Notes under the pieces: generated by a model
What the model was told of the DNA's origin: nothing
Database searches by the model: none
Seen by the model: the letters and a program-made list of their open reading frames with translations, nothing else
Position numbers and translations under genes: made by a program
Part shown: positions 46,317-61,086 of the stretch, one piece after another
Layout: the number at the start of each line of letters is the position of its first letter
Numbering within the stretch: position 1 is the stretch's first letter
Assembly (NCBI RefSeq): GCF_028281565.1
Contig: NZ_JANQJQ010000025.1
Coordinates: 1-64,000, forward strand
Reading direction: 5' to 3'
Source: Seonamhaeicola sp.
GTDB taxonomy: Bacteria > Bacteroidota > Bacteroidia > Flavobacteriales > Flavobacteriaceae
Length of the DNA stretch: 64,000 nt

Positions 46317-48146
46317 ATGATCACACTAAAAAAACCATTATTAATTGTTGTTGCCTTTTTGTTCGGTCTTTTTGTTGTCCACGGGCAGGATTTGGGAACC
46401 TATGAATATTCTAAGAAGCTAAAACCCAAAGACCGCATTTGTTTTGCATTGTACACGGTACATGAGCATACGGTAAAAATGACAGCCCAGTTCTATCCCA
46501 TTCAGGATTTTGAACCTTTTGAAGCCAGTTTACAGCTAAAGAAAGAGGGGCAATGGGAAACGGTGGCGCATTCCAGGATACAGTATCCCGGTTATACGGC
46601 ACATTTTAGATTAGAGAACTGGGACGATACCAAAGAGGTGGAATATCGTGTTAACTTTATGGATAAAGGGTTTTACAATGGTATTATCAGGAAAAACCCT
46701 GTGGATAACGATGAATTCGTCATGGTGACATTCTCCTGTAATTCCATTTACTCAAGACATGATGGTAACATTCCGAAAACCGATATCATTGAAAACCTAA
46801 AAAAGATCAAGCCGGACTTGTTATATTTTGCAGGTGATCAGGTCTATGATCATAGTTTTCATTTGATTCACTGGTTACAGTTAGGCAGGGATTTTGGAGA
46901 AATAATACGTAATACACCAACTATTACGGTACCCGATGATCACGATATAGGCCAGGGCAATCTTTGGGGAGCCGGTGGTAAGGAAGCACCTTCACGTCAT
47001 GGGAATATGGGAGGCTACTACATGCCTGTTGAATATATCAAGGAGGTGGAGCGCGCGCAAACCAGTCATTTACCGGATCCGTATGATCCAACCCCTGTAG
47101 AAAGGGGTATTGGGGTGTATTATACTGATTTAAAATGGGGCGGTATGAGTTTTGCTATTTTAGAAGACAGAAAATTTAAAAGCGGGCCAAAGCCTATAAC
47201 AGATAAAGTTAGAAAAGCACATAAGGGCTTTAATGATTTGGATCCAAAGCTATTTGATGTTCCCGGTGCTACTATGCTAGGCGACAGGCAATTAAAATTT
47301 TTGGAAGATTGGACTACCGATTGGGAAAATGCTGAAATGAAATCGGTATTATCTCAGACTATTTTCTGTAAATCGGCTAATTATGGTAACAAAGGAAAAA
47401 ACGAAATAAGATTTGATTTCGATTCTAACGGATGGCCGCAAACGGGACGTAATAAGGCTTTAAAAGTAATTCGTAAAAGCTTTTCAACCATGGTGGCCGG
47501 TGACCAGCATTTAGGTTCTGTTATTCGTCATGGTATCGATGATTGGAATGATGCCGGTTATTCCTTTGCGGTTCCTGCAGTGGCCAACTTTTGGGTGCGC
47601 TGGTGGGATCCTAAAGTACCGGGAAAGAACCGTAAAAAAGGAGCACCTTATTATACCGGCGAGTTTTTAGATGGTTTTAATAATAAAATTACGGTTGAAG
47701 CCATAGCCAATCCTAATTTTAAAGAAAATATGGAATCCGGGGATAGGTTGAATACCCGTGCTGCCGGTTATGGGATTATCAGGTATGACAAACCCAAACG
47801 TGAAATTACTTTTGAATGCTGGGGTAGAAATGTGGATATGAGTGATCCAAACAGTAAACAATATCCCGGGTGGCCGGTAACCGTGTCACAAGAAGATAAT
47901 TATAGTATTTTAAACGGGTTTGAATTACCAAAACTTCAGATTTCTAAAGAAGATCAAGTGGTTACTGTGGTTGAAAAAACGTCAGGAGAAGTAATTTCTT
48001 CCCAAAGAATAAAAGGGAGTTTGTATCAGCCCAAAGTGCATCAGGAAGGGGCTTACAAGATTAAAATTGGTGAAGGGGATAGCCAGCAAACCATAGAAGT
48101 CCAGGCAAAAAAGAAGAACAGGGCCACTAAGAATATAAGCTTGTAA
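46317..48146 (+). CDS. PhoD-like alkaline phosphatase D family protein
   Basis: 609 residues, exported (signal peptide ending at FVVHGQ). Residues ~135-420 form a metallophosphoesterase domain with the PhoD-like features FSCNSI, FAGDQVYDHS, PDDHDIGQGN and AGDQHLGS ... supplying the metal ligands. The role is release of phosphate from esters or diesters in the periplasm or outside, with the phytase at 28499 as a second phosphate-scavenging enzyme in the window. Single gene. Confidence 0.85.
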   Translation: MITLKKPLLIVVAFLFGLFVVHGQDLGTYEYSKKLKPKDRICFALYTVHEHTVKMTAQFYPIQDFEPFEASLQLKKEGQWETVAHSRIQYPGYTAHFRLENWDDTKEVEYRVNFMDKGFYNGIIRKNPVDNDEFVMVTFSCNSIYSRHDGNIPKTDIIENLKKIKPDLLYFAGDQVYDHSFHLIHWLQLGRDFGEIIRNTPTITVPDDHDIGQGNLWGAGGKEAPSRHGNMGGYYMPVEYIKEVERAQTSHLPDPYDPTPVERGIGVYYTDLKWGGMSFAILEDRKFKSGPKPITDKVRKAHKGFNDLDPKLFDVPGATMLGDRQLKFLEDWTTDWENAEMKSVLSQTIFCKSANYGNKGKNEIRFDFDSNGWPQTGRNKALKVIRKSFSTMVAGDQHLGSVIRHGIDDWNDAGYSFAVPAVANFWVRWWDPKVPGKNRKKGAPYYTGEFLDGFNNKITVEAIANPNFKENMESGDRLNTRAAGYGIIRYDKPKREITFECWGRNVDMSDPNSKQYPGWPVTVSQEDNYSILNGFELPKLQISKEDQVVTVVEKTSGEVISSQRIKGSLYQPKVHQEGAYKIKIGEGDSQQTIEVQAKKKNRATKNISL

Positions 48147-51719: not shown

Positions 51720-52742
51720 TTAAGAAGCTTTAAACGTGGAATCCCTGATTATAAGATGGCCCTTGATCTCAATGGTTTTATTGCCAATAGAGTCAGGATT
51801 TTCAATTTCTTCAATGAGGTATTTGACCGCAGTAGAACCAATGCGTTCTCCGGGTTGATCAATGGTAGTGAGCATGGGTTCTATAATGGTAGAATTTTTA
51901 GAATTACTAAAGCCTACCACAGCTATTTCTTCCGGGATATTTATATTGAATTTCTTCAGGGTCTGTATAACACCTATGGCGGCACTATCGGTAATAGCAA
52001 AAATTGCATCCGGCTTGTTTTTAATACTTAACAGTAAGTTAGCCATACGTCTCCCCTGTCTTAGTGATATATCATCTACACTTATGATTATTTTTTCATC
52101 TATTGGGATATTATGTTCCTTCAGAGCACGTAAATAACCGGAATAACGACGTTCTGAATTATAAGAATATTCGTTTTCCTTTATAATGGCTATGCGCTTT
52201 TTGCCAATATTAATTAAGTGTTCAATGGCATTATAGGCCGATTCTTCTTCATTAATTACAACTTGCGAGCAAGGGATTTTGTTTGAGGCCTTATCGAATA
52301 ATATTAGTGGAACATTATCAATAACTTTAAGGATATCATCAACTTCTCTGGTTACTTTTGAAATGGACATTAAAATACCATCTACATTGAATTGTAACAT
52401 GGTATTAAGCATTTCGGTTTGTTTAATAGCATCATTATTCGACTCAGAAATAATAACCCTGTATCCCTTTAAAGAGGCTTCTTCTAAGATGCCTTTTAAA
52501 ATAGTAGAAGTAAAGTAATGCGTAATATTGGGAACAAGAACCCCGATAATGTTGGTTTTTTGCTGCCTGAAACCTTTGGCAAATATATTGGGGACATAAT
52601 TCAGTTTTGCAGCTAACTTTTGGACTTTTTCTTTAGTAGCTTCACTAATATCAGGATGGTCATTTAAAGCTCTGGAGATGGTAGAGACCGATAAATTTAA
52701 TTCTTGGGCTAACTTCTTTAAAGAGGTGGTTTCTTTTTTCAT
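51720..52742 (-). CDS. LacI family transcriptional regulator of the glycosylglycerate locus
   Basis: 340 residues from the ATG at 52742. N-terminal helix-turn-helix (LKKLAQELNLSVSTISRALNDHPDIS, near 7-32) with hinge AAKLNYVPNIFAKGFRQQKTN, then a periplasmic-binding-protein-like effector domain (GVLVPNITHYFTS ... DAIFAITDSAAIGVIQTL ... TIDQPGERIG). Divergent from the TonB receptor; the intergenic region carries a perfect LacI-type palindrome. Effector presumably a sugar or glycoside of the adjacent pathway. Confidence 0.92.
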   Translation of the reverse strand: MKKETTSLKKLAQELNLSVSTISRALNDHPDISEATKEKVQKLAAKLNYVPNIFAKGFRQQKTNIIGVLVPNITHYFTSTILKGILEEASLKGYRVIISESNNDAIKQTEMLNTMLQFNVDGILMSISKVTREVDDILKVIDNVPLILFDKASNKIPCSQVVINEEESAYNAIEHLINIGKKRIAIIKENEYSYNSERRYSGYLRALKEHNIPIDEKIIISVDDISLRQGRRMANLLLSIKNKPDAIFAITDSAAIGVIQTLKKFNINIPEEIAVVGFSNSKNSTIIEPMLTTIDQPGERIGSTAVKYLIEEIENPDSIGNKTIEIKGHLIIRDSTFKAS

Positions 52743-52761
52743 TACCAAATAATATTAAAAA

Positions 52762-52788
52762 ATGCAAACGTTCCCGCAAACGTTTGCG
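52762..52788. promoter_or_regulatory. LacI-type operator, duplicated
   Basis: A perfect 14-base palindrome CGCAAACGTTTGCG at 52775-52788, with an overlapping upstream partial copy GCAAACGTTCCCGC (52764-52777). Located between the divergent regulator and receptor genes, so it probably binds the adjacent LacI-family protein and can control both. Confidence 0.85.
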
Positions 52789-52868
52789 TACAAATATGGC
52801 AATATTTTGTGAATTTTAATAGAAAGTTATTATTTAATTAGCGTCAAAATTAACTAATTATCAAAAAA

Positions 52869-55544
52869 ATGAAAAAAGCTATTTTAACTTTATTATGCAT
52901 TTTTAGTGTTTCTGCAATGGTTGCGCAAACTGATATTTCAGGAACAGTAAAAGATGGAAGTGGCGTGCCGGTGACCGGAGCAAATATTTTGATACTAAAC
53001 AGTTCTTCCGGAGCAACAACAGATTTTGACGGAAATTTTAGTTTTAGTACCAGTCTTACGGGAACTCAAAAATTACAAGTGTCATATATTGGTTATGAAA
53101 CTTATACGCAAGACATTGAACTAAATGGAACGGCTATTACCCTACAAATCGTTTTAAAGGAAGGAGGTACCAGTTTGGATGAGGTGGTTTTAACGGCATC
53201 CGCAACCTTCAGATCACAAAAAGAAACACCTATGTCTATTAGCTCCTTAAAGCAGAAAGAAATAACCAAACTTTCTGTAAACTCTCAGGCGGATGTTTTA
53301 AGAAGTATTCCGGGTATTACTGCCGAAGGTGGTGGTGGTGAAACGGCCTCTAACATATTTGTAAGAGGGTTGCCTTCCGGTGGACAATATGTTTTTAATC
53401 CTTTACAATATGACGGTATGCCTCTAATGAGCACCTTTGGTTTAAACTCTTCGGCTCATGATGTGTATGCAAGACCGGACATCGGTTTTAAAGGTGTGGA
53501 GTTTGTTAGAGGAGGTGCCGCCGTGTTATACGGGGCCGGTTCCGTGGCAGGTATTATTAATTATACCAGTAAAACAGGAGATTCTAATGATGAAAACATA
53601 ATCAACATTGAGTGGGCAGATGAAGGTAGGTTAAAGACAGACTTCTACACCGGTGGAAAATTAGGAGGCGAGGAATCCAATACCTATTATGCGTTCACCG
53701 GTTTTGTTAGAAAAGATGATGGCCCTATTGATACGGGATTACCTACCAAAGGGGTTCAGTTCCGAGCCAATATCAAACAGAAGTTTGAAAATGGATCCTT
53801 TACAATTCACGGACAGTTTATCAATGATAAGGCACAATTCTTCTTACCGCTTCCTTTAGATGGTGCTACCAGAACCAGGCTTCCCGGTAATGATGGGAAG
53901 GCTGTCTCTCAGTTACTTTCGGGTGAATTGGCGCGGACTTCGTTCCTGACAGCCGGTGGCGTTTATGAAAGTCCTATTGAAGATGGTGTTCACACCCAGG
54001 GAGGTTATATAATGGGTGATTTTAAATACAATTTTTCGGATGATTTAAAATTTAAGTCCAAAATAAGATATGCAAATTATAAGCATAATTTCGCCCTGTA
54101 CATTGGCGGTAATGGAGACAACAACAACCCGATTACATTAAACGAATATGTAAATAATATTGCTCCCGGAAATCTTGGCTTTTCTGCCTCTTATCAGGGA
54201 ACAAGCGATCAAATAAGTGGTTCTGACCTGGTTTTGGATAATTTGCATATTGACCGTTTAAGACCAATGACAGACTACTCAGGGGAGGCCTCTTTAACTA
54301 AGACGCTTAATGTAGAGAATGGTACTCACAATATTACAGGAGGTTTCTTTTTAGCGCGTACTGAGGCCGAAGATGTAAACTACCAGTACAGAGTTTTATC
54401 AGAATTTAACAATAACCCTAAATTGGTAAACTTAAGCTATACAGATGCCGGTGGAAACAATGTAGTCTTTTCAGATGGTGGATTGTATAACAGAATTGGG
54501 ATGACTTCTAACAGATTTTTATCACAAAGTAGAACGGCTTTTTACTTAACAGATGAGATGGTTTTTGATAAATGGCGATTTGATGTTGGGTTTAGAATTG
54601 AAAACACTAAAGGAACTTTTAATAACGGAAATATAGTAGAGTCCCAGGTATATGATAATCCGGAGCTGACTCCGGAGCTGGCCAATGTGAATTTTGCAGA
54701 CGGCAGCTTTACGCGTGCGGATGTTGATGCTACAGACTGGGCGGTTTCTTTAGCCGGTTTGTACAAATTAAGTACAGCGGTTAATTTATATGCCAACTTC
54801 TCTAAAGGGTTCTTTTTCCCTCAGATCAGAGGGTTCGCTCCCATTGCTACAGGTGTAACCGGAAGTAAATATGATTCGGAAAGAATTATTCAGTTTGAGG
54901 CCGGTGCAAAAGTTGGAACAGAGAAATTGAAAGGCTCATTGGCTGCTTACTATGTTGGTCTAAGTGACAGAATTAAAATTGATCAAGGGTTTAGTAATGG
55001 AACCTTAGTGGATTTATTCAGATCAGACCAAAGTACGAGCACCTTAGGTTTAGAAGCAACGTACGATTGGAGGTTTGCTGAAAACTTTAATTTAAGAGGG
55101 TCTACTACGTATCAGGCCCATGAAATAACAAAGAACGAAAGAACAGATTTGGTTGCAAATACAACAACAACGGTAGATGAGGGTAACGAATTAGCCAGAC
55201 AACCAAATTTCTTGGGGACCTTAGGCGTGTATTTTGACAATGGTAAATGGGATGCCTTATTCTCACTTAATCATACAGGTAGCAAATTCGCAGCAGATAA
55301 TAATAATGTAGAGCTGGATGCCATCACTATAGGCCGTCTGGGAGCCGGATATGAATTCCCTATGGGAGCCAATGACAGTGGTGATACATTAAGACTTGGA
55401 TTCTCTATTTTCAATTTATTTGACGATGAAGGCGTGACCGAGGGAGATCCCAGAAACATTAATCAACAAGGTGATGCGGAGTTTTTCTTCGGAAGACCCA
55501 TATTGCCCAGACGTTTTTTCCTAACAGCCACATTTAATTTTTAA
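52869..55544 (+). CDS. TonB-dependent receptor of the glycosylglycerate locus
   Basis: 891 residues. Signal peptide ~1-19 (SAMVAQ), CarboxypepD_reg-like domain ~20-110 (DISGTVKDGSGVPVTGANILIL), plug ~120-240 (QADVLRSIPGITAEG, IFVRGLPSGGQYVF), barrel ending ATFNF. It is not a SusC with SusD, but a FecA-like single receptor. First gene downstream of the duplicated LacI operator; a hairpin terminator follows, so the glycosidase may be partly separate. Confidence 0.9.
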   Translation: MKKAILTLLCIFSVSAMVAQTDISGTVKDGSGVPVTGANILILNSSSGATTDFDGNFSFSTSLTGTQKLQVSYIGYETYTQDIELNGTAITLQIVLKEGGTSLDEVVLTASATFRSQKETPMSISSLKQKEITKLSVNSQADVLRSIPGITAEGGGGETASNIFVRGLPSGGQYVFNPLQYDGMPLMSTFGLNSSAHDVYARPDIGFKGVEFVRGGAAVLYGAGSVAGIINYTSKTGDSNDENIINIEWADEGRLKTDFYTGGKLGGEESNTYYAFTGFVRKDDGPIDTGLPTKGVQFRANIKQKFENGSFTIHGQFINDKAQFFLPLPLDGATRTRLPGNDGKAVSQLLSGELARTSFLTAGGVYESPIEDGVHTQGGYIMGDFKYNFSDDLKFKSKIRYANYKHNFALYIGGNGDNNNPITLNEYVNNIAPGNLGFSASYQGTSDQISGSDLVLDNLHIDRLRPMTDYSGEASLTKTLNVENGTHNITGGFFLARTEAEDVNYQYRVLSEFNNNPKLVNLSYTDAGGNNVVFSDGGLYNRIGMTSNRFLSQSRTAFYLTDEMVFDKWRFDVGFRIENTKGTFNNGNIVESQVYDNPELTPELANVNFADGSFTRADVDATDWAVSLAGLYKLSTAVNLYANFSKGFFFPQIRGFAPIATGVTGSKYDSERIIQFEAGAKVGTEKLKGSLAAYYVGLSDRIKIDQGFSNGTLVDLFRSDQSTSTLGLEATYDWRFAENFNLRGSTTYQAHEITKNERTDLVANTTTTVDEGNELARQPNFLGTLGVYFDNGKWDALFSLNHTGSKFAADNNNVELDAITIGRLGAGYEFPMGANDSGDTLRLGFSIFNLFDDEGVTEGDPRNINQQGDAEFFFGRPILPRRFFLTATFNF

Positions 55545-55583
55545 GATTGTTTTCGTTTGTTCAGAAGTAGTTAGGTTTAGTTG

Positions 55584-55626
55584 ACTCACCACTTTTTGGC
55601 TTAGGTTTTGGGTGGTGAGTTTTTTT
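55584..55626 (+). terminator. Terminator after the TonB receptor
   Basis: Stem ACTCACCAC / GTGGTGAGT with a ~19-base loop and a run of seven T. A second hairpin (AAAGGCTTG ... CAAGCCTTT, 55666-55693, followed by ATTT) precedes the glycosidase gene. Read-through or a separate promoter is needed for the downstream genes. Confidence 0.75.
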
Positions 55627-55722
55627 AAAGAGCTGTTTATAATGATTAATGGCATCTCTCAATCTAAAGGCTTGTTGAATCTGGCAAGCCTTTATTTAAA
55701 TAAAAACTGATTAGTAGAAATA

Positions 55723-57036
55723 ATGAAAAATGCATCACTATACAATAAAGCGAAGGAGGTTCTTCAAAACAACTGGAGAGCAGGATTTAGCATTCCATGT
55801 GCTAAATTGTACCCGTTCCAGTGGTTTTGGGATTCCGGTTTAATAGCTATTGGGTTTGCACATTTTGATATGCAAAAAGCCGAACAGGAAATAAAAACAT
55901 TGCTTGATGCCCAATGGGGTAATGGGTTTATTCCTCATATTATCTTTCATACGGAAAGTGATACCTACTTCCCGGGTCCGGATTTTCATCGTTCCGATTT
56001 ACATCCGCAGTCTTCAAAAAAATATAGGTCTACCGGAATGACACAACCACCGGTTACAGGATTTGTATTGGAAGAAATTTATAGAATCAGCAAGGATAAG
56101 GAGGCTACTTTAAAGTTTATTGAAGATCTTATAGATAAGGTATATTTCAATCATGACTATTTTTATCGGCATAGAGACCCTGAAAATGAAGGCTTGGTAT
56201 ATATATATCACAATTGGGAGTCAGGGACTGATAATTCTCCTATTTGGGACGATATCTGGGATACTATGAACCCGCCGGAATATACATTCGAGCGTAGAGA
56301 TACTACGCATGTTGATGCTTCGGAAAGGCCATCAAAGCGGGAGTATGACCATTATCTTTACATCATAGACATTGCAAAAGAGCATAATTACAGTGATGAG
56401 AAAATAGCAGAACTTTCTCCTTTTTTGATTCAGGATCCGTTGTTTAATGCCATGCTGATAAAGTCCAATGAAAGTTTACTGACCTTGTATGAATTGATAG
56501 GAAACAATGAGGCGAAAATAAGTCAGCTAAAACAATGGCAGGAAAAAGCCATAAATGCTTTTAACAAAAAGCTGTATGATGAAGACTTGGGAGCTTACGT
56601 GCACTATGATTTAAGAAATAAAAGGCCCTTAAGGTTTTTATCGTCTTCTTCTTTTGCACCTTTATTTGCTAACATTCCCGGTAAAGAAAGGGCGGACAAT
56701 ATGATTAAAGTAATGATGAATAAGTTCGGGAAAGAAAGTCAATATTTATGTGCCTCTTTCGATCCGGATAGTGAACGCTTCAACCCCAAAAAATATTGGC
56801 GAGGCCCGGTTTGGATAAATTTAAATTGGATGCTTTTTGATGGGTTAAATCGATATGGTTATACTGATATTGCTGAACGCGTAAAAAGTGATTCCATAGA
56901 GATTATTGATAAAAACGGGTTCTACGAGTATTTCGATTCCAGAAAAGAAGTCCACAAGGCCGGAAATGCAGGTTATGGTGGCAACAATTTTTCCTGGAGT
57001 GCAGCCTTGTTAATTGATTTGTTGGAAAAGAATTGA
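55723..57036 (+). CDS. GH63-type glycosidase, probable glycosylglycerate hydrolase
   Basis: 437 residues without signal peptide, cytoplasmic. An (alpha/alpha)6 hydrolase. Features: PFQWFWDSGL (substrate cleft, ~31-40), IYHNWESGTDNSPIWDD (161-177) with D170 as likely general acid, and NGFYEYFD (398-405) with E402 as likely general base, then GNNFSWSAALLIDLL. The length and motifs recall mannosylglycerate/glucosylglycerate hydrolases rather than trehalase. The operon ends with a glycerate kinase, consistent with release of glycerate. Exact sugar undetermined. Confidence 0.8.
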   Translation: MKNASLYNKAKEVLQNNWRAGFSIPCAKLYPFQWFWDSGLIAIGFAHFDMQKAEQEIKTLLDAQWGNGFIPHIIFHTESDTYFPGPDFHRSDLHPQSSKKYRSTGMTQPPVTGFVLEEIYRISKDKEATLKFIEDLIDKVYFNHDYFYRHRDPENEGLVYIYHNWESGTDNSPIWDDIWDTMNPPEYTFERRDTTHVDASERPSKREYDHYLYIIDIAKEHNYSDEKIAELSPFLIQDPLFNAMLIKSNESLLTLYELIGNNEAKISQLKQWQEKAINAFNKKLYDEDLGAYVHYDLRNKRPLRFLSSSSFAPLFANIPGKERADNMIKVMMNKFGKESQYLCASFDPDSERFNPKKYWRGPVWINLNWMLFDGLNRYGYTDIAERVKSDSIEIIDKNGFYEYFDSRKEVHKAGNAGYGGNNFSWSAALLIDLLEKN

Positions 57037-57040
57037 TGAA

Positions 57041-57658
57041 GTGTTAAAGTTTGATTTTGATACAGATTATGTTTTAGAAGATAACCGCGTAAGATTAAGT
57101 CCGCTGAAGTTAGAACACATAGAGCCGTTATTGTCTATAGCTAACGAAACAGATTTATGGACCTATATACTGGAAAAAGGTAACGGATTGGAAAACTTAA
57201 CCAGGTATGTACTTTCTGCAATTGAGAATCGTAGGTTTAAAAAGGAATACCCATTTGTGGTTTTTGATAAAACTAAGAATGAATATGCAGGCATGACCCG
57301 ATTATATGAGTATTCAAAAGATCTTAAAACCATCAAACTTGGGCATACCTGGTATGGTGAAAATTTTAGGGGAACCGGATTAAATAAGCATTGTAAGTAT
57401 CTCTTATTTGAATTTATATTTGAAAAACTGCAATTAGAGCGTATAGGGTTCGGGGCTCATATAGAAAATAAAGTAAGTATTGCGGCAATGACAAGTGTTG
57501 GCTGTAAAAAAGAAGGTGTTTTAAGAAATTTTATACCTTCATTAGACGGAAAAGGAAGGGCCGATATTGTGTTGATGAGTATCCTTAAGCATGAATGGAA
57601 GCACAGCGCAAAAAGGATGTTGGAACAAAAGTTAAAAACTAAAAGTAAAGCATTATGA
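57041..57658 (+). CDS. GNAT family N-acetyltransferase
   Basis: 205 residues from GTG 57041, 4 bases after the glycosidase stop; the frame is open from a TTG at 57014. RimJ/RimL-like pattern: LEDNRVRLSPLKLEHIEPLL, LGHTWYGENFRGTGLNKHCKYLL (acetyl-CoA loop), IENKVSIAAMTSVGCKKEGVLRNF. Substrate unknown; it overlaps the symporter start by 4 bases (ATGA), showing co-translation within the catabolic operon. Confidence 0.82.
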   Translation: MLKFDFDTDYVLEDNRVRLSPLKLEHIEPLLSIANETDLWTYILEKGNGLENLTRYVLSAIENRRFKKEYPFVVFDKTKNEYAGMTRLYEYSKDLKTIKLGHTWYGENFRGTGLNKHCKYLLFEFIFEKLQLERIGFGAHIENKVSIAAMTSVGCKKEGVLRNFIPSLDGKGRADIVLMSILKHEWKHSAKRMLEQKLKTKSKAL

Positions 57659-59262
57659 ATTACATAGATTATATCATCATAGTAGTGTACTTATTGGCTT
57701 TTTTAGGCATTGGTTACTTCTTTAAAGAGAATAATGATTCCAAAGACTATTTTTTAGGCGGACAATCCATGGGTTGGTTTCCGTTGAGTTTATCAACTAT
57801 GGCAACCCAATTGTCGGCTATAAGTTTTATTTCGGCACCGGCGTTTGTAGGGTTAAAAGAAGGCGGCGGTCTGCAATGGTTAACATACGAGTTCGGTGTG
57901 CCTCTGGCCATGGCATTTCTGCTCATTGCAATCATTCCAACCTTATACAATTCAGGTATAGTAAGTGTTTATGAATACCTTGAAAAACGCTTTGATGCGT
58001 CTTCGCGCCTATTAATAAGTTTTGTGTTTCAAATAAGCCGTTCCGTAGCTACCGGTGTTATGGTATACACCATGGCACTAATACTTCAGGCTACGGTTGG
58101 AATTGATTTTTGGATATCCATTTTGATCATCGGGGTCATTACTATGATATATTCCTTTCAGGGAGGCATGAAAGCAGTCATCTGGGGTGATGTAATCCAG
58201 ATGCTTATACTATTCTTCGGCATTATCATTTGTTTGGTATACGGACTTAGTGAATTAGGGGGACTGGACAACTTTTTAACCCATGTAGATAAAGACCGGC
58301 TTACGGCAGTTGATTTCTCAAAATGGGGATTCAATAATGGAGACAAACAGGACGAATTTGGTTTTTGGCCTATGGTCATTGGTGGATTTTTCCTGTATGC
58401 TTCCTATTACGGAACAGACCAAACGCAGTCTCAGCGCCTGTTATCGGCTAAAGGCATGCCCACCATTAAAAAATTACTTTTAGCCAATGGCTTATTACGT
58501 TTCCCTATCACACTAACGTATTGTATCATGGGACTGGTGTTAGGAACTTTGTTATTACAGGATTTTGGATTCCAGGAGCTCATGGATAGTGTGTATCAAA
58601 GTAATATTGGTAGCCTGGAAGGTAAAAAAGCCGATCTTATGGTGCCGGTTTTTATTATTAAATATTTACCTAATGGGATTATAGGGATTCTTATTGTTGC
58701 TATTATGTCGGCAGCTATGTCATCCCTCAGTTCTACGGTTAATTCATTATCGGCAGTATCTTTAGAAGATTTTATTAAACGTTTTAAGCCTGATATGACT
58801 GATAAACAATATGTAATGAATTCAAGATTATTATCAGTATTTTGGGGTCTGGTATGCCTGTTCTTTGCATTTTTTGCCGGCAGTATAGAAGGTACTGTTA
58901 TCGAAGTGATCAACAAGATCAGTTCTGTGTTTTACGGACCGATTTTAGCGGCCTTTATTTTAGCCATTCTTACCAAAAAAACACATGCTTTGGGTGCCAA
59001 TATTGGTATTGTAGCAGGCGTGTTGTTCAATATGTACTTATGGCTATATGTTCCCGAGGTATTTTGGTTCTGGTGGAATGCCATAGGTTGCCTGGTAACA
59101 GTCATTGTAGCTTATACTATAAGTTTGGTTATTAAAAAAGAGGTTCGGGAAGGGCTTGAGGTTGTTTTTTATAAGGCCGGAAAACGCGAAGTTGCAATAC
59201 TTTTAGGTTTCTTTGTAGTTATTACACTTGTTGCCATCTCTATGGCTAAACTATTAGGTTAA
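57655..59262 (+). CDS. Sodium:solute symporter (SSS family)
   Basis: 535 residues, about 13-14 membrane helices. N-terminal YFLGGQSMGWFPLSLSTMATQLSAISFISAPAF is a classic SSS signature with sodium-binding residues. Inner-membrane Na+-driven uptake, here presumably of the intact glycoside because the glycosidase is cytoplasmic. Followed 11 bases later by glycerate kinase. Confidence 0.9.
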   Translation: MNYIDYIIIVVYLLAFLGIGYFFKENNDSKDYFLGGQSMGWFPLSLSTMATQLSAISFISAPAFVGLKEGGGLQWLTYEFGVPLAMAFLLIAIIPTLYNSGIVSVYEYLEKRFDASSRLLISFVFQISRSVATGVMVYTMALILQATVGIDFWISILIIGVITMIYSFQGGMKAVIWGDVIQMLILFFGIIICLVYGLSELGGLDNFLTHVDKDRLTAVDFSKWGFNNGDKQDEFGFWPMVIGGFFLYASYYGTDQTQSQRLLSAKGMPTIKKLLLANGLLRFPITLTYCIMGLVLGTLLLQDFGFQELMDSVYQSNIGSLEGKKADLMVPVFIIKYLPNGIIGILIVAIMSAAMSSLSSTVNSLSAVSLEDFIKRFKPDMTDKQYVMNSRLLSVFWGLVCLFFAFFAGSIEGTVIEVINKISSVFYGPILAAFILAILTKKTHALGANIGIVAGVLFNMYLWLYVPEVFWFWWNAIGCLVTVIVAYTISLVIKKEVREGLEVVFYKAGKREVAILLGFFVVITLVAISMAKLLG

Positions 59263-59273
59263 ATAATAATACT

Positions 59274-60401
59274 TTGAAGATAATACTGGCACCGGATAAA
59301 TTTAAAAATTCTCTAACGGGATCAGCGTTTTGTAATGCCGTAGAAGAAGGTGTTCTTGCAGTAATACCGGATGCGGAAATTATTAAGCTACCGCTTGCCG
59401 ATGGTGGCGACGGAACCATTGAGGTGATTGACTATTATCTAAAAGGCCAGGTTTTAGATGTTGAGGTAAACAACCCTTTTTTTCAACCTGTTAATGCCTC
59501 TTATTTATATTCTGAAGAAACCGGGACCGCTTTTGTAGAAATGGCTGAAGCCTCCGGTGTAAAACTTCTGGAGCCGGAAGCCTTTGATTGTAAAAATGCC
59601 ACTACTTTGGGTACCGGAGACATGATAGCAGATGCCATTGAAAAAGGTGCTAAGAAAATTATTTTGGGGATTGGAGGTAGTGCCACAAACGATTGTGGTA
59701 TAGGTATGGCCACGGCTCTGGGATATCGATTTTTAGATAAGGACGGTCAGGAGTTGCTTCCCATTGGAGCCAATTTATCAAAAATAGCCTCTGTGGATGT
59801 TTCAAAAATACATCCAAAATTAAATGATGTAAGTTTTAGCGTAGCATGTGATGTTACAAACCCGTTGTTCGGAAAAAATGGAGCCGCTTATGTGTATGCC
59901 GCTCAAAAAGGGGCTTCTGCTGAAGACATCGATATGCTGGACAAAGGCCTGGAATCGTTTTCTAAGATCATTAAGGCTGTTTTTAATGTAGATGCACAAC
60001 AGGTAAGAGGAGCCGGAGCGGCTGGAGGTATGGGAATAGGCTCTAAAGTGTTTCTTAATGGCGATTTAAAACCCGGAATTGAATTGATTAAAAGTTTGGC
60101 TCGGTTTGATGAACTGATACAAGGTGCTGATTGGATCATCACCGGGGAAGGTAAACTGGATTCCCAAACCATGTCAGGTAAAACCATTCAGGGGGTGCTG
60201 TCATCAGCCAAAGCAAACCAAATAAAAGTCGCTGCTTTTTGTGGTGCTATAGCACTTTCCAAAAAAGAAACAGTAAATATGGGAATTGATTATGCCGATT
60301 CGGTTATCGGTAAAGCAATTTCTTTAGAAGATGCCATGCAAAACGGATACGTTTATGTAAGACAGATAGCTAAGGATTTTGCCGAGAGTTTTCTGTATTA
60401 A
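59274..60401 (+). CDS. Glycerate kinase (GarK family)
   Basis: 375 residues from TTG 59274; no better start, and MKIILAPDKFKNSLTGSAF is the standard family N-terminus. Phosphorylates glycerate to 2-phosphoglycerate for entry into glycolysis. Further signatures: LPLADGGDGTIEV, ILGIGGSATNDCGIGMA, GAGAAGGMG and ITGEGKLDSQTMSGKT. Last gene of the locus; 3' end overlaps a convergent small gene by 32 bases. Confidence 0.95.
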   Translation: MKIILAPDKFKNSLTGSAFCNAVEEGVLAVIPDAEIIKLPLADGGDGTIEVIDYYLKGQVLDVEVNNPFFQPVNASYLYSEETGTAFVEMAEASGVKLLEPEAFDCKNATTLGTGDMIADAIEKGAKKIILGIGGSATNDCGIGMATALGYRFLDKDGQELLPIGANLSKIASVDVSKIHPKLNDVSFSVACDVTNPLFGKNGAAYVYAAQKGASAEDIDMLDKGLESFSKIIKAVFNVDAQQVRGAGAAGGMGIGSKVFLNGDLKPGIELIKSLARFDELIQGADWIITGEGKLDSQTMSGKTIQGVLSSAKANQIKVAAFCGAIALSKKETVNMGIDYADSVIGKAISLEDAMQNGYVYVRQIAKDFAESFLY

Positions 60402-60690
60402 TATTTTTTAACCATTCAGATAGCCCGTTTATTTCATCATGCGCATAACTGTTCAGGGTTAACCTGCACAACCAGTACACGGTACTTTGCATCTGTTCAT
60501 TTTTATAATGTCTTTTCTCTAATTGTGTTAGTAGCAATATACCGTCGAGTAAGGATTCTTGCATATAGGCTAGTTCGTTTAAGCTACAGATAGGTAGTTT
60601 TATATAGTTCTGTTTCGTTTTGGGGTCTGTGTGCAGCGTATGCCCATACTTTGCTTTAAATTCTTGTGGGCTCATTTTTGTTGTTTTCAT
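60370..60690 (-). CDS. Hypothetical protein paired with HTH regulator
   Basis: 106 residues, no signal or membrane segment: MKTTKMSPQEFKAKYGHTL ..., with a mostly helical middle (LNELAYMQESLLDGILLLTQLEKRHYKNEQ). A second Met at codon 6 could be the start. Divergent from a small helix-turn-helix gene 171 bases away. I do not recognise the family. Confidence 0.55.
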   Translation of the reverse strand: MKTTKMSPQEFKAKYGHTLHTDPKTKQNYIKLPICSLNELAYMQESLLDGILLLTQLEKRHYKNEQMQSTVYWLCRLTLNSYAHDEINGLSEWLKNINTENSRQNP

Positions 60691-60861: not shown

Positions 60862-61086
60862 ATGGTTGATATAGATAAGAAAATATGTAATTATATAGCT
60901 AATGAATGGGTTTCTAAAGCGAAAACTAAAAGTAGCTTTGCAATCGACCACAATATTGACGAAAAGACAGTTCGCAAGATTGTGAAAGAAAAAGAAGGCT
61001 ATCGTATACCGGTAAAAACACTGTATAAGATCTGCGAAGCTCGTGAAATAAAAATTTCCGAGTTTTTCAAAATGATTGGAGAGTAA
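60862..61086 (+). CDS. Small HTH DNA-binding protein (XRE-like)
   Basis: 74 residues: a single helix-turn-helix (KSSFAIDHNIDEKTVRKIVKEKE, near 23-45) followed by VKTLYKICEAREIKISEFFKMI, similar to Cro/CI-type regulators. Preceded by a 171-base AT-rich intergenic region shared with the divergent hypothetical gene; no clear operator was found. Confidence 0.7.
   Translation: MVDIDKKICNYIANEWVSKAKTKSSFAIDHNIDEKTVRKIVKEKEGYRIPVKTLYKICEAREIKISEFFKMIGE

Follow-up and report, generated by a model that had tools for sequence, protein, structure and literature searches.

Which compound is served by the LacI-associated catabolic locus that occupies positions 51720–60401 of the DNA stretch analysed here? 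This stretch (the window) comprises the first 64,000 nucleotides of contig NZ_JANQJQ010000025.1 from Seonamhaeicola sp. (Flavobacteriaceae), and its proteins were identified by all-frame reading combined with Pfam and NCBIfam profile scans. The original prediction, made from the sequence alone, recognised a LacI regulator, a TonB-dependent receptor, a GH63-type hydrolase, a sodium symporter and a GarK glycerate kinase, in this order, and proposed uptake and cleavage of a glycosylglycerate followed by phosphorylation of the released glycerate. Reading frames and both sets of profiles place the five genes at the predicted positions and in the predicted order; a sixth gene, coding for a GNAT acetyltransferase between the hydrolase and the symporter, had been overlooked. 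The proposed function in uptake, cleavage and glycerate phosphorylation is supported, and the choice between a mannosyl and a glucosyl compound, which the prediction had left open, now leans to the mannosyl side. Judged from sequence comparison, the locus is probably an operon for the scavenging of 2-O-alpha-D-mannosyl-D-glycerate (mannosylglycerate, digeneaside), induced by its substrate.

The hydrolase and its probable aglycone

The hydrolase gene (55723–57036, + strand) codes for a mannosylglycerate-hydrolase-like GH63 enzyme that covers the complete PF22422 MGH1-like_GH profile (positions 1–356 of 356; 1.1e-90; 305.2 bits against a cut-off of 27). It is single-copy in its genome, where two other weak matches reach at most 25% identity over part of the length. 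No signal peptide is seen by eye, and the enzyme is presumed to be cytoplasmic. Its best match among solved structures is Thermus thermophilus TTHA0978 (2z07; 3.6e-94), followed by the Mycolicibacterium hassiacum glucosylglycerate hydrolase (MhGgH; 2.1e-60 to 3.8e-58) and Escherichia coli YgjK (2.2e-12); trehalases rank behind YgjK, the best of them at 2.4e-06. Identity amounts to 40% over 411 aligned residues with the Thermus mannosylglycerate hydrolase (TtMGH) and to 31% over 417 aligned residues with MhGgH.

Nineteen positions engaged in sugar contacts, glycerate contacts and catalysis were mapped from the residues described in PMC6608630. All 19 are the same as in TtMGH and 18 as in MhGgH, the sole mismatch being Phe423, which is Gln434 in MhGgH and also Phe in Thermus. 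The window's residues at the 19 positions, among them the glycerate-contacting Tyr30, Trp34, Tyr82, Arg202 and Tyr358, recur in 80 of 80 flavobacterial relatives; these relatives are the best 80 named flavobacterial loci from a contig scan of 412 relatives, a sample that is biased to close kin. Among 31 further sequences, 23 are identical at the 19 positions and eight differ at one or two. Since these residues are kept and MhGgH did not cleave glucosylglycerol or glucosylglycolate (PMC6608630), a glycerate aglycone is indicated for the hydrolase substrate.

An AlphaFold2 model of the enzyme (mean pLDDT 88.9) was compared by Foldseek with solved structures, with TM-scores taken by query length. 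The 20 top chains are all mannosylglycerate or glucosylglycerate hydrolases (TM 0.81–0.92), headed by 4wvc/4wva (0.87–0.90), and YgjK (0.65–0.69) and trehalases (0.56–0.62) appear at lower ranks among the 50 matches listed. A trehalase (GH37) identity is rejected on sequence (3.6e-94 against 2.4e-06), fold and active-site residues, and an N-glycan glucosidase is rejected on the same three lines. The original prediction had proposed a comparison of phylogeny and structure for this enzyme, and its assignment to the mannosylglycerate hydrolase type rather than to either of these families is borne out. In a tree of 43 sequences, in which several long branches leave the deep order unsure, the window hydrolase clusters with Emticicia and its flavobacterial relatives; the group of the Thermus enzyme contains proteobacterial and Meiothermus sequences. 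A Rubrobacter sequence (L161), which we take to be a characterised enzyme, falls in the larger half together with the window hydrolase.

The predicted release of glycerate is backed by the kinase gene that closes the operon (59274–60401, + strand). Its GarK-type product matches PF02595 (3.3e-134; 448 bits against 23.3), TIGR00045 (422.5 bits against a cut-off of 168.45) and the solved structure 3cwc (1.6e-83). A glycerate kinase is present in 76 of the 80 loci and in all of ten remoter loci of the same family. The NCBIfam equivalog models for a 2-phospho and a 3-phospho product both score below their own cut-offs.

Conserved gene set, operator and transporters

In 72 of the 80 loci the complete set of regulator, receptor, hydrolase, symporter and kinase is present; the gene order is hence not due to chance. 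Taken singly, LacI is found in 76 loci, the receptor in 76, the symporter in 78 and the GNAT gene in 18. Five of the eight incomplete loci are cut by contig ends (L034, L060, L066, L106, L110), one is a 6-kb contig in which none of the four partners is recognised (L111), and in two from Maribacter (L076, L086) the LacI gene adjoins the hydrolase gene and an adjacent receptor is absent. The nearest named relative of the locus is that of Seonamhaeicola algicola (L033). The ten remoter loci (L151–L160, 54–61% identity) all combine hydrolase, symporter and kinase; LacI, the sole regulator type looked for, is recognised only in L160. A plasmid record of Emticicia carries the full gene set. At E ≤1e-40, and counting the genome of the window, 43 of 299 genomes sampled from its family encode the hydrolase, as do 19 of 395 sampled across the phylum; seven of these 19 belong to the same family.

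The divergent LacI-family gene (51720–52748, − strand; Pfam LacI 5.7e-12, Peripla_BP_3 2.2e-30; likely start ATG at 52742) is separated from the receptor gene by a region that contains the perfect palindrome CGCAAACGTTTGCG (52775–52788, no strand), a probable LacI operator. An upstream repeat, GCAAACGTT, annotated as overlapping the operator, is placed at 52764–52772. The palindrome was searched for in 75 LacI–receptor intergenic regions (74 loci and the window), each taken together with at most 60 bases from the beginning of the LacI gene and 30 from that of the receptor gene. It is present within one mismatch in 62 and within two in 73 of these regions, from which the consensus itself was derived; 50 rounds of dinucleotide shuffling gave no site within one mismatch and at most one within two. 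In the genome of the window, 52775–52788 is the only site with at most one mismatch to CGCAAWCGWTTGCG, and since no further operator is found elsewhere the regulator looks local. Note that reading the pattern backwards, as a control, likewise yields one match; the genome count alone hence proves nothing, and the support for the operator comes from its conservation across species. A scan for promoters and terminators yielded 21 and 5 candidate sites, no excess over the shuffle means of 25.1 and 6.2.

The TonB-dependent receptor (52869–55544, + strand) has a Plug domain (6.2e-19) and a CarboxypepD_reg_2 extension. Its neighbours are the LacI and hydrolase genes, no SusD gene adjoins it and it scores 97.7 bits with the SusC model, whose cut-off is 368.25; a SusCD-type polysaccharide utilisation locus is rejected on these grounds, as the original prediction had maintained. 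Comparison with solved structures gave matches to the N-terminal extension and the plug region, and predicted no ligand. The SSS-family sodium:solute symporter (57655–59262, + strand; PF00474 4.8e-50; TIGR00813 above cut-off) is the presumed inner-membrane importer.

Both transporters fall into two classes. Identity to the window's symporter forms blocks of 52–62% (42 loci) and 80–94% (36 loci), with none between, and identity to its receptor lies at 44–55% (31 loci) or 62–88% (45 loci). All four combinations of classes occur, in 27, 25, 17 and 6 of the 75 loci that have both proteins. On a FastTree hydrolase tree, at least six changes of symporter class, 12 of receptor class and 11 of ManA presence (see below) have to be assumed, as counted without a shuffled control and with receptors of fewer than 700 residues left out. 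The chromosomal surroundings of the window's locus, read by eye without profile scan, are UppP-like and TruB-like genes on one side and an FtsX-like gene on the other, and 15 loci share them. At this site the symporter is of the window's class in two loci and of the other class in 13, and the receptor in six and nine, respectively. Both classes of each transporter thus occur at one shared chromosomal site, and their exchange happened in place; receptor and symporter classes were swapped independently of each other around a constant core.

The GNAT gene is an accessory member of the operon. Its open reading frame (ORF) spans 57014–57658 (+ strand), with GTG 57041, shortly after the hydrolase stop, as the probable real start. 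The product (57041–57658) matches PF13302 (1.3e-14) and has RimJ/RimL-type enzymes among its nearest solved relatives; structure comparison gives no lead past this RimJ/RimL-like assignment. On the hydrolase tree, no fewer than 11 changes in its presence have to be assumed. L141, which belongs to a different family of the phylum, likewise has a GNAT relative between the hydrolase and symporter genes. Other genes are found in the same part of the operon: an AAC(3)-like acetyltransferase, below its NCBIfam cut-off, between GNAT and symporter in Flavivirga rizhaonensis (L044:12050–12799), and a GH97 glycosidase between hydrolase and symporter in Wenyingzhuangia heitensis (L068:11266–13269).

Two small ORFs separate the kinase gene from the FtsX-like gene: 60862–61086 (+ strand, 74 codons), by eye a small helix-turn-helix protein, and 60370–60690 (− strand, 106 residues), which has no Pfam match. 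They may be an insertion, because the corresponding gap in the related L033 is only about 375 bases. Upstream of the locus, 46317–48146 (+ strand) codes for a PhoD-like phosphatase of 609 residues (PF09423, 2.5e-09) with an N-terminus that resembles a signal peptide by eye.

The sugar moiety: mannosyl or glucosyl

A mannose-6-phosphate isomerase (ManA) gene lies directly 3' of the kinase gene in 13 of the 76 kinase-bearing loci (L038, L039, L047, L049, L053, L054, L056, L069, L070, L078, L081, L091, L107), at a distance of −20 to +28 bases; the 76 include L100, whose contig stops 144 bases past the kinase. Of these 13 proteins, all five tested pass the NCBIfam manA cut-off, three tested on Pfam match PMI_typeI_cat and the remaining ones were joined by BLAST clustering. 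PF20511 was searched in 24 genomes: the 13 with operonic ManA and, of the first 13 listed without it, the 11 other than L046 and L050. Two or three hits are found in 12 of the 13 genomes with operonic ManA (one only in L070) and a single hit in nine of the 11 others (two in L033, three in L043). In a tree of 26 ManA sequences (the 13 operonic ones and 13 encoded elsewhere in eight of the 13 genomes and in the genome of the window) the operonic copies form nearly one cluster, with three label changes where shuffling gives a mean of 9.1 and none of 500 shuffles is as low. The exceptions are L081, outside this cluster on a long branch of its own, and a non-operonic copy from Hyunsoonleella within it.

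Isomerases are also found beside more distant hydrolases. Among 16 relatives on plasmids, chosen by us from 115 records, the hydrolase gene adjoins that of an isomerase plausibly acting on mannose in six: a Lyx_isomer protein (D-lyxose/D-mannose type) in Loktanella, Marinovum, Jannaschia, Paracoccus and SC52, and a GlcNAc-2-epimerase-type (AGE-type) protein, following a hexokinase, in Catenovulum, which comes from algae. Because of the operonic ManA of relatives and these neighbouring mannose-type isomerases, we infer that mannosylglycerate is probably preferred over glucosylglycerate.

Other genes of possible interest lie 3' of the glycerate kinase. L110 carries a ROK-family kinase (PF00480; 5084–5956), a candidate mannokinase within the operon. 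In a Flavobacterium locus (L071:14213–14728) a protein of 171 residues matches the mannose-6-phosphate isomerase C-terminal family (PF01050, 1.4e-09); ORFs of equal size and place are present in L074, L083 and L104.

In the proposed mechanism, the receptor would carry mannosylglycerate across the outer membrane and the SSS symporter would bring it, presumably intact, across the inner membrane together with sodium. The cytoplasmic GH63 enzyme, with Asp170 as acid and Glu402 as base by homology, is predicted to hydrolyse it with inversion to mannose and D-glycerate. By analogy with its family, GarK would convert glycerate to 2-phosphoglycerate, which would enter lower glycolysis. Mannose may be phosphorylated by a ROK-type kinase (the genome has six ROK genes, by our reading of eight profile rows) and then isomerised by ManA, whose gene lies elsewhere in the genome here but inside the operon in 13 relatives. 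LacI would repress from the palindrome at 52775–52788 until the substrate or a product binds.

Several observations weigh against this explanation. Operonic ManA is absent from the genome of the window and from 62 of the 75 loci with a visible stretch past the kinase; the only PF20511 hit of that genome is on another contig (C38), and no second operator ties LacI to this distant gene in the genome search. Only six of the 16 plasmid relatives have an annotated glycerate kinase. The stretches from Rhizobium, Neorhizobium, Chelatococcus, Roseomonas, Ruegeria and Rubrobacter carry no annotation of an isomerase or a glycerate kinase, and in the unannotated Allorhizobium stretch matches are confined to the references for LacI and hydrolase. 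Some members of the lyxose isomerase and AGE families act on other substrates. Nine genomes from other families of the phylum contribute ten loci (L141–L150), of which BLAST at 1e-8 recognised a symporter in the cluster in three and a GarK- or MOFRL-type kinase nearby in none; the coupling is weaker there. The active-site residues, near-invariant across contexts, failed to discriminate between mannosyl and glucosyl compounds, and no substrate is predicted for the transporters.

If the true substrate were glucosylglycerate, for instance from marine picocyanobacteria, or if both compounds were used equally, the products would be glucose and glycerate. A Meiothermus relative with the identical set of 19 residues is encoded beside a GH13-type sugar phosphorylase, presumably similar to glucosylglycerate phosphorylase, and this neighbour suggests a glucosylglycerate setting. 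The enzymes of Thermus and Selaginella cleave mannosylglycerate and glucosylglycerate about equally well (PMC6608630), and according to passages of PMC11631117 the main solutes of Prochlorococcus NATL2A are sucrose and glucosylglycerate. Against this stands the presence of ManA in 13 operons and of mannose-type isomerases in six of 16 plasmid relatives, for which no purpose is evident if glucose were released. The NCBIfam glucosylglycerate hydrolase equivalog (NF047898) scores 323.6 bits, well under its cut-off of 550. The replacement of Gln434 of the glucosylglycerate-preferring MhGgH by Phe423 is a weak argument, as Phe is usual throughout the family, also in Meiothermus. On balance this alternative, with glucosylglycerate as the substrate or both compounds used equally, is rather unlikely. 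Much less likely still is a different small alpha-glycoside as the substrate (trehalose, glucosylglycerol, floridoside or a disaccharide), with the kinase belonging to an unrelated glyoxylate or tartronate route: public records annotate relatives as "trehalase family glycosidase" and there is a weak Pfam trehalase match (3.5e-16), but the fold comparison, the five glycerate-contacting residues kept throughout and the conserved linkage to glycerate kinase argue otherwise. Recycling of a self-made solute is also less likely, because no synthase match is found in the genome of the window: PF09488 (mannosyl-phosphoglycerate synthase) has no match, and NF010496, which we take to be a glucosyl-3-phosphoglycerate synthase model (its confirmed name is PRK13915), has none above cut-off; it gives 14 weak hits below, and weak hits of this model occur in all 14 control genomes too.

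A further explanation, compatible with scavenging of mannosylglycerate, concerns the transporters: the locus family may serve more than one glycosylglycerate or derivative, with a fixed core and ligand-tuned receptors and symporters. The two identity blocks of each transporter, their free combination, their repeated changes on the hydrolase tree and the presence of both classes at the shared chromosomal site are in its favour. The active site of the hydrolase is nevertheless the same in all 80 loci, and pressure from phages or bacteriocins rather than a change of ligand may account for the variation of the receptor, so that the idea is held only tentatively.

Relation to known systems and significance

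The original prediction had stated that no such complete pathway is described for Flavobacteria, and this is contradicted by the literature. Passages of PMC8072126, with reference to Barbeyron et al. 2016, report that Maribacter dokdonensis 62-1 has homologs of the Zobellia galactanivorans genes assigned to digeneaside breakdown, and PMC6298971 names digeneaside among the further possible substrates of North Sea Flavobacteriia loci. These bacteria are likewise Flavobacteria and the predicted compound is the same. The gene order of the window is present in four Zobellia loci (L092, L102, L108, L112) and several Maribacter loci; since records of both genera carry the same locus, the pathway is taken as already proposed for related bacteria, and we infer that the locus corresponds to the gene set of Barbeyron et al. 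2016. The passages of PMC8072126 on digeneaside make no mention of operonic ManA, of the operator or of transporter classes, and titles and abstract beginnings retrieved by a literature search contain no description of operonic ManA, operator or transporter exchange.

The Thermus enzyme (2z07, 4wva–4wvc) has the same fold as the window hydrolase and agrees at all mapped positions. In Thermus, mannosylglycerate is a solute made by the bacterium itself, whereas no synthase is found here and the hydrolase gene sits with importer genes. M. hassiacum (5ohc and others) also provides an enzyme of the same fold, which differs at the Gln434 position and prefers glucosylglycerate (PMC6608630). Alphaproteobacterial loci (Loktanella, Jannaschia, Paracoccus) code for LacI, an ATP-binding cassette (ABC) transporter, hydrolase, D-lyxose/D-mannose isomerase and glycerate kinase; Marinovum and SC52 have the isomerase without an annotated kinase. 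They share with the window the hydrolase family, a regulator of LacI or unnamed type and, in three, the glycerate kinase, but they differ by an ABC importer in place of the TonB receptor and SSS symporter, by Lyx_isomer in place of ManA, and by a kinase that is MOFRL-type rather than GarK-type (tested on Loktanella alone). The mng system of E. coli catabolises mannosylglycerate by phosphotransferase import and a hydrolase of the phosphorylated compound; no phosphotransferase gene appears among the Pfam results for the locus of the window.

These comparisons raise the possibility, which we consider doubtful as a whole, that a mannosylglycerate-scavenging module of hydrolase, glycerate kinase and mannose-handling isomerase was assembled in separate lineages with three isomerase families and unrelated importers, and that in Flavobacteriaceae the transporters were swapped in place, independently of each other, of the regulator and of the core, tracking chemically different forms of the ligand. 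What the comparison adds to the earlier proposals is firmer support for mannose and the wide occurrence of the gene set. Conservation of the operator and the accessory ManA would help to recognise such loci in genomes that list the enzyme simply as "trehalase family glycosidase". The exchange of transporters poses the question of ligand tuning versus escape from receptor-targeting agents. If the wider possibility of a repeatedly assembled module with ligand-tracking transporters holds, the red-algal solute digeneaside would be a common and contested marine carbon source; the locus itself would provide a defined, regulated and testable route from the outer membrane to glycolysis.

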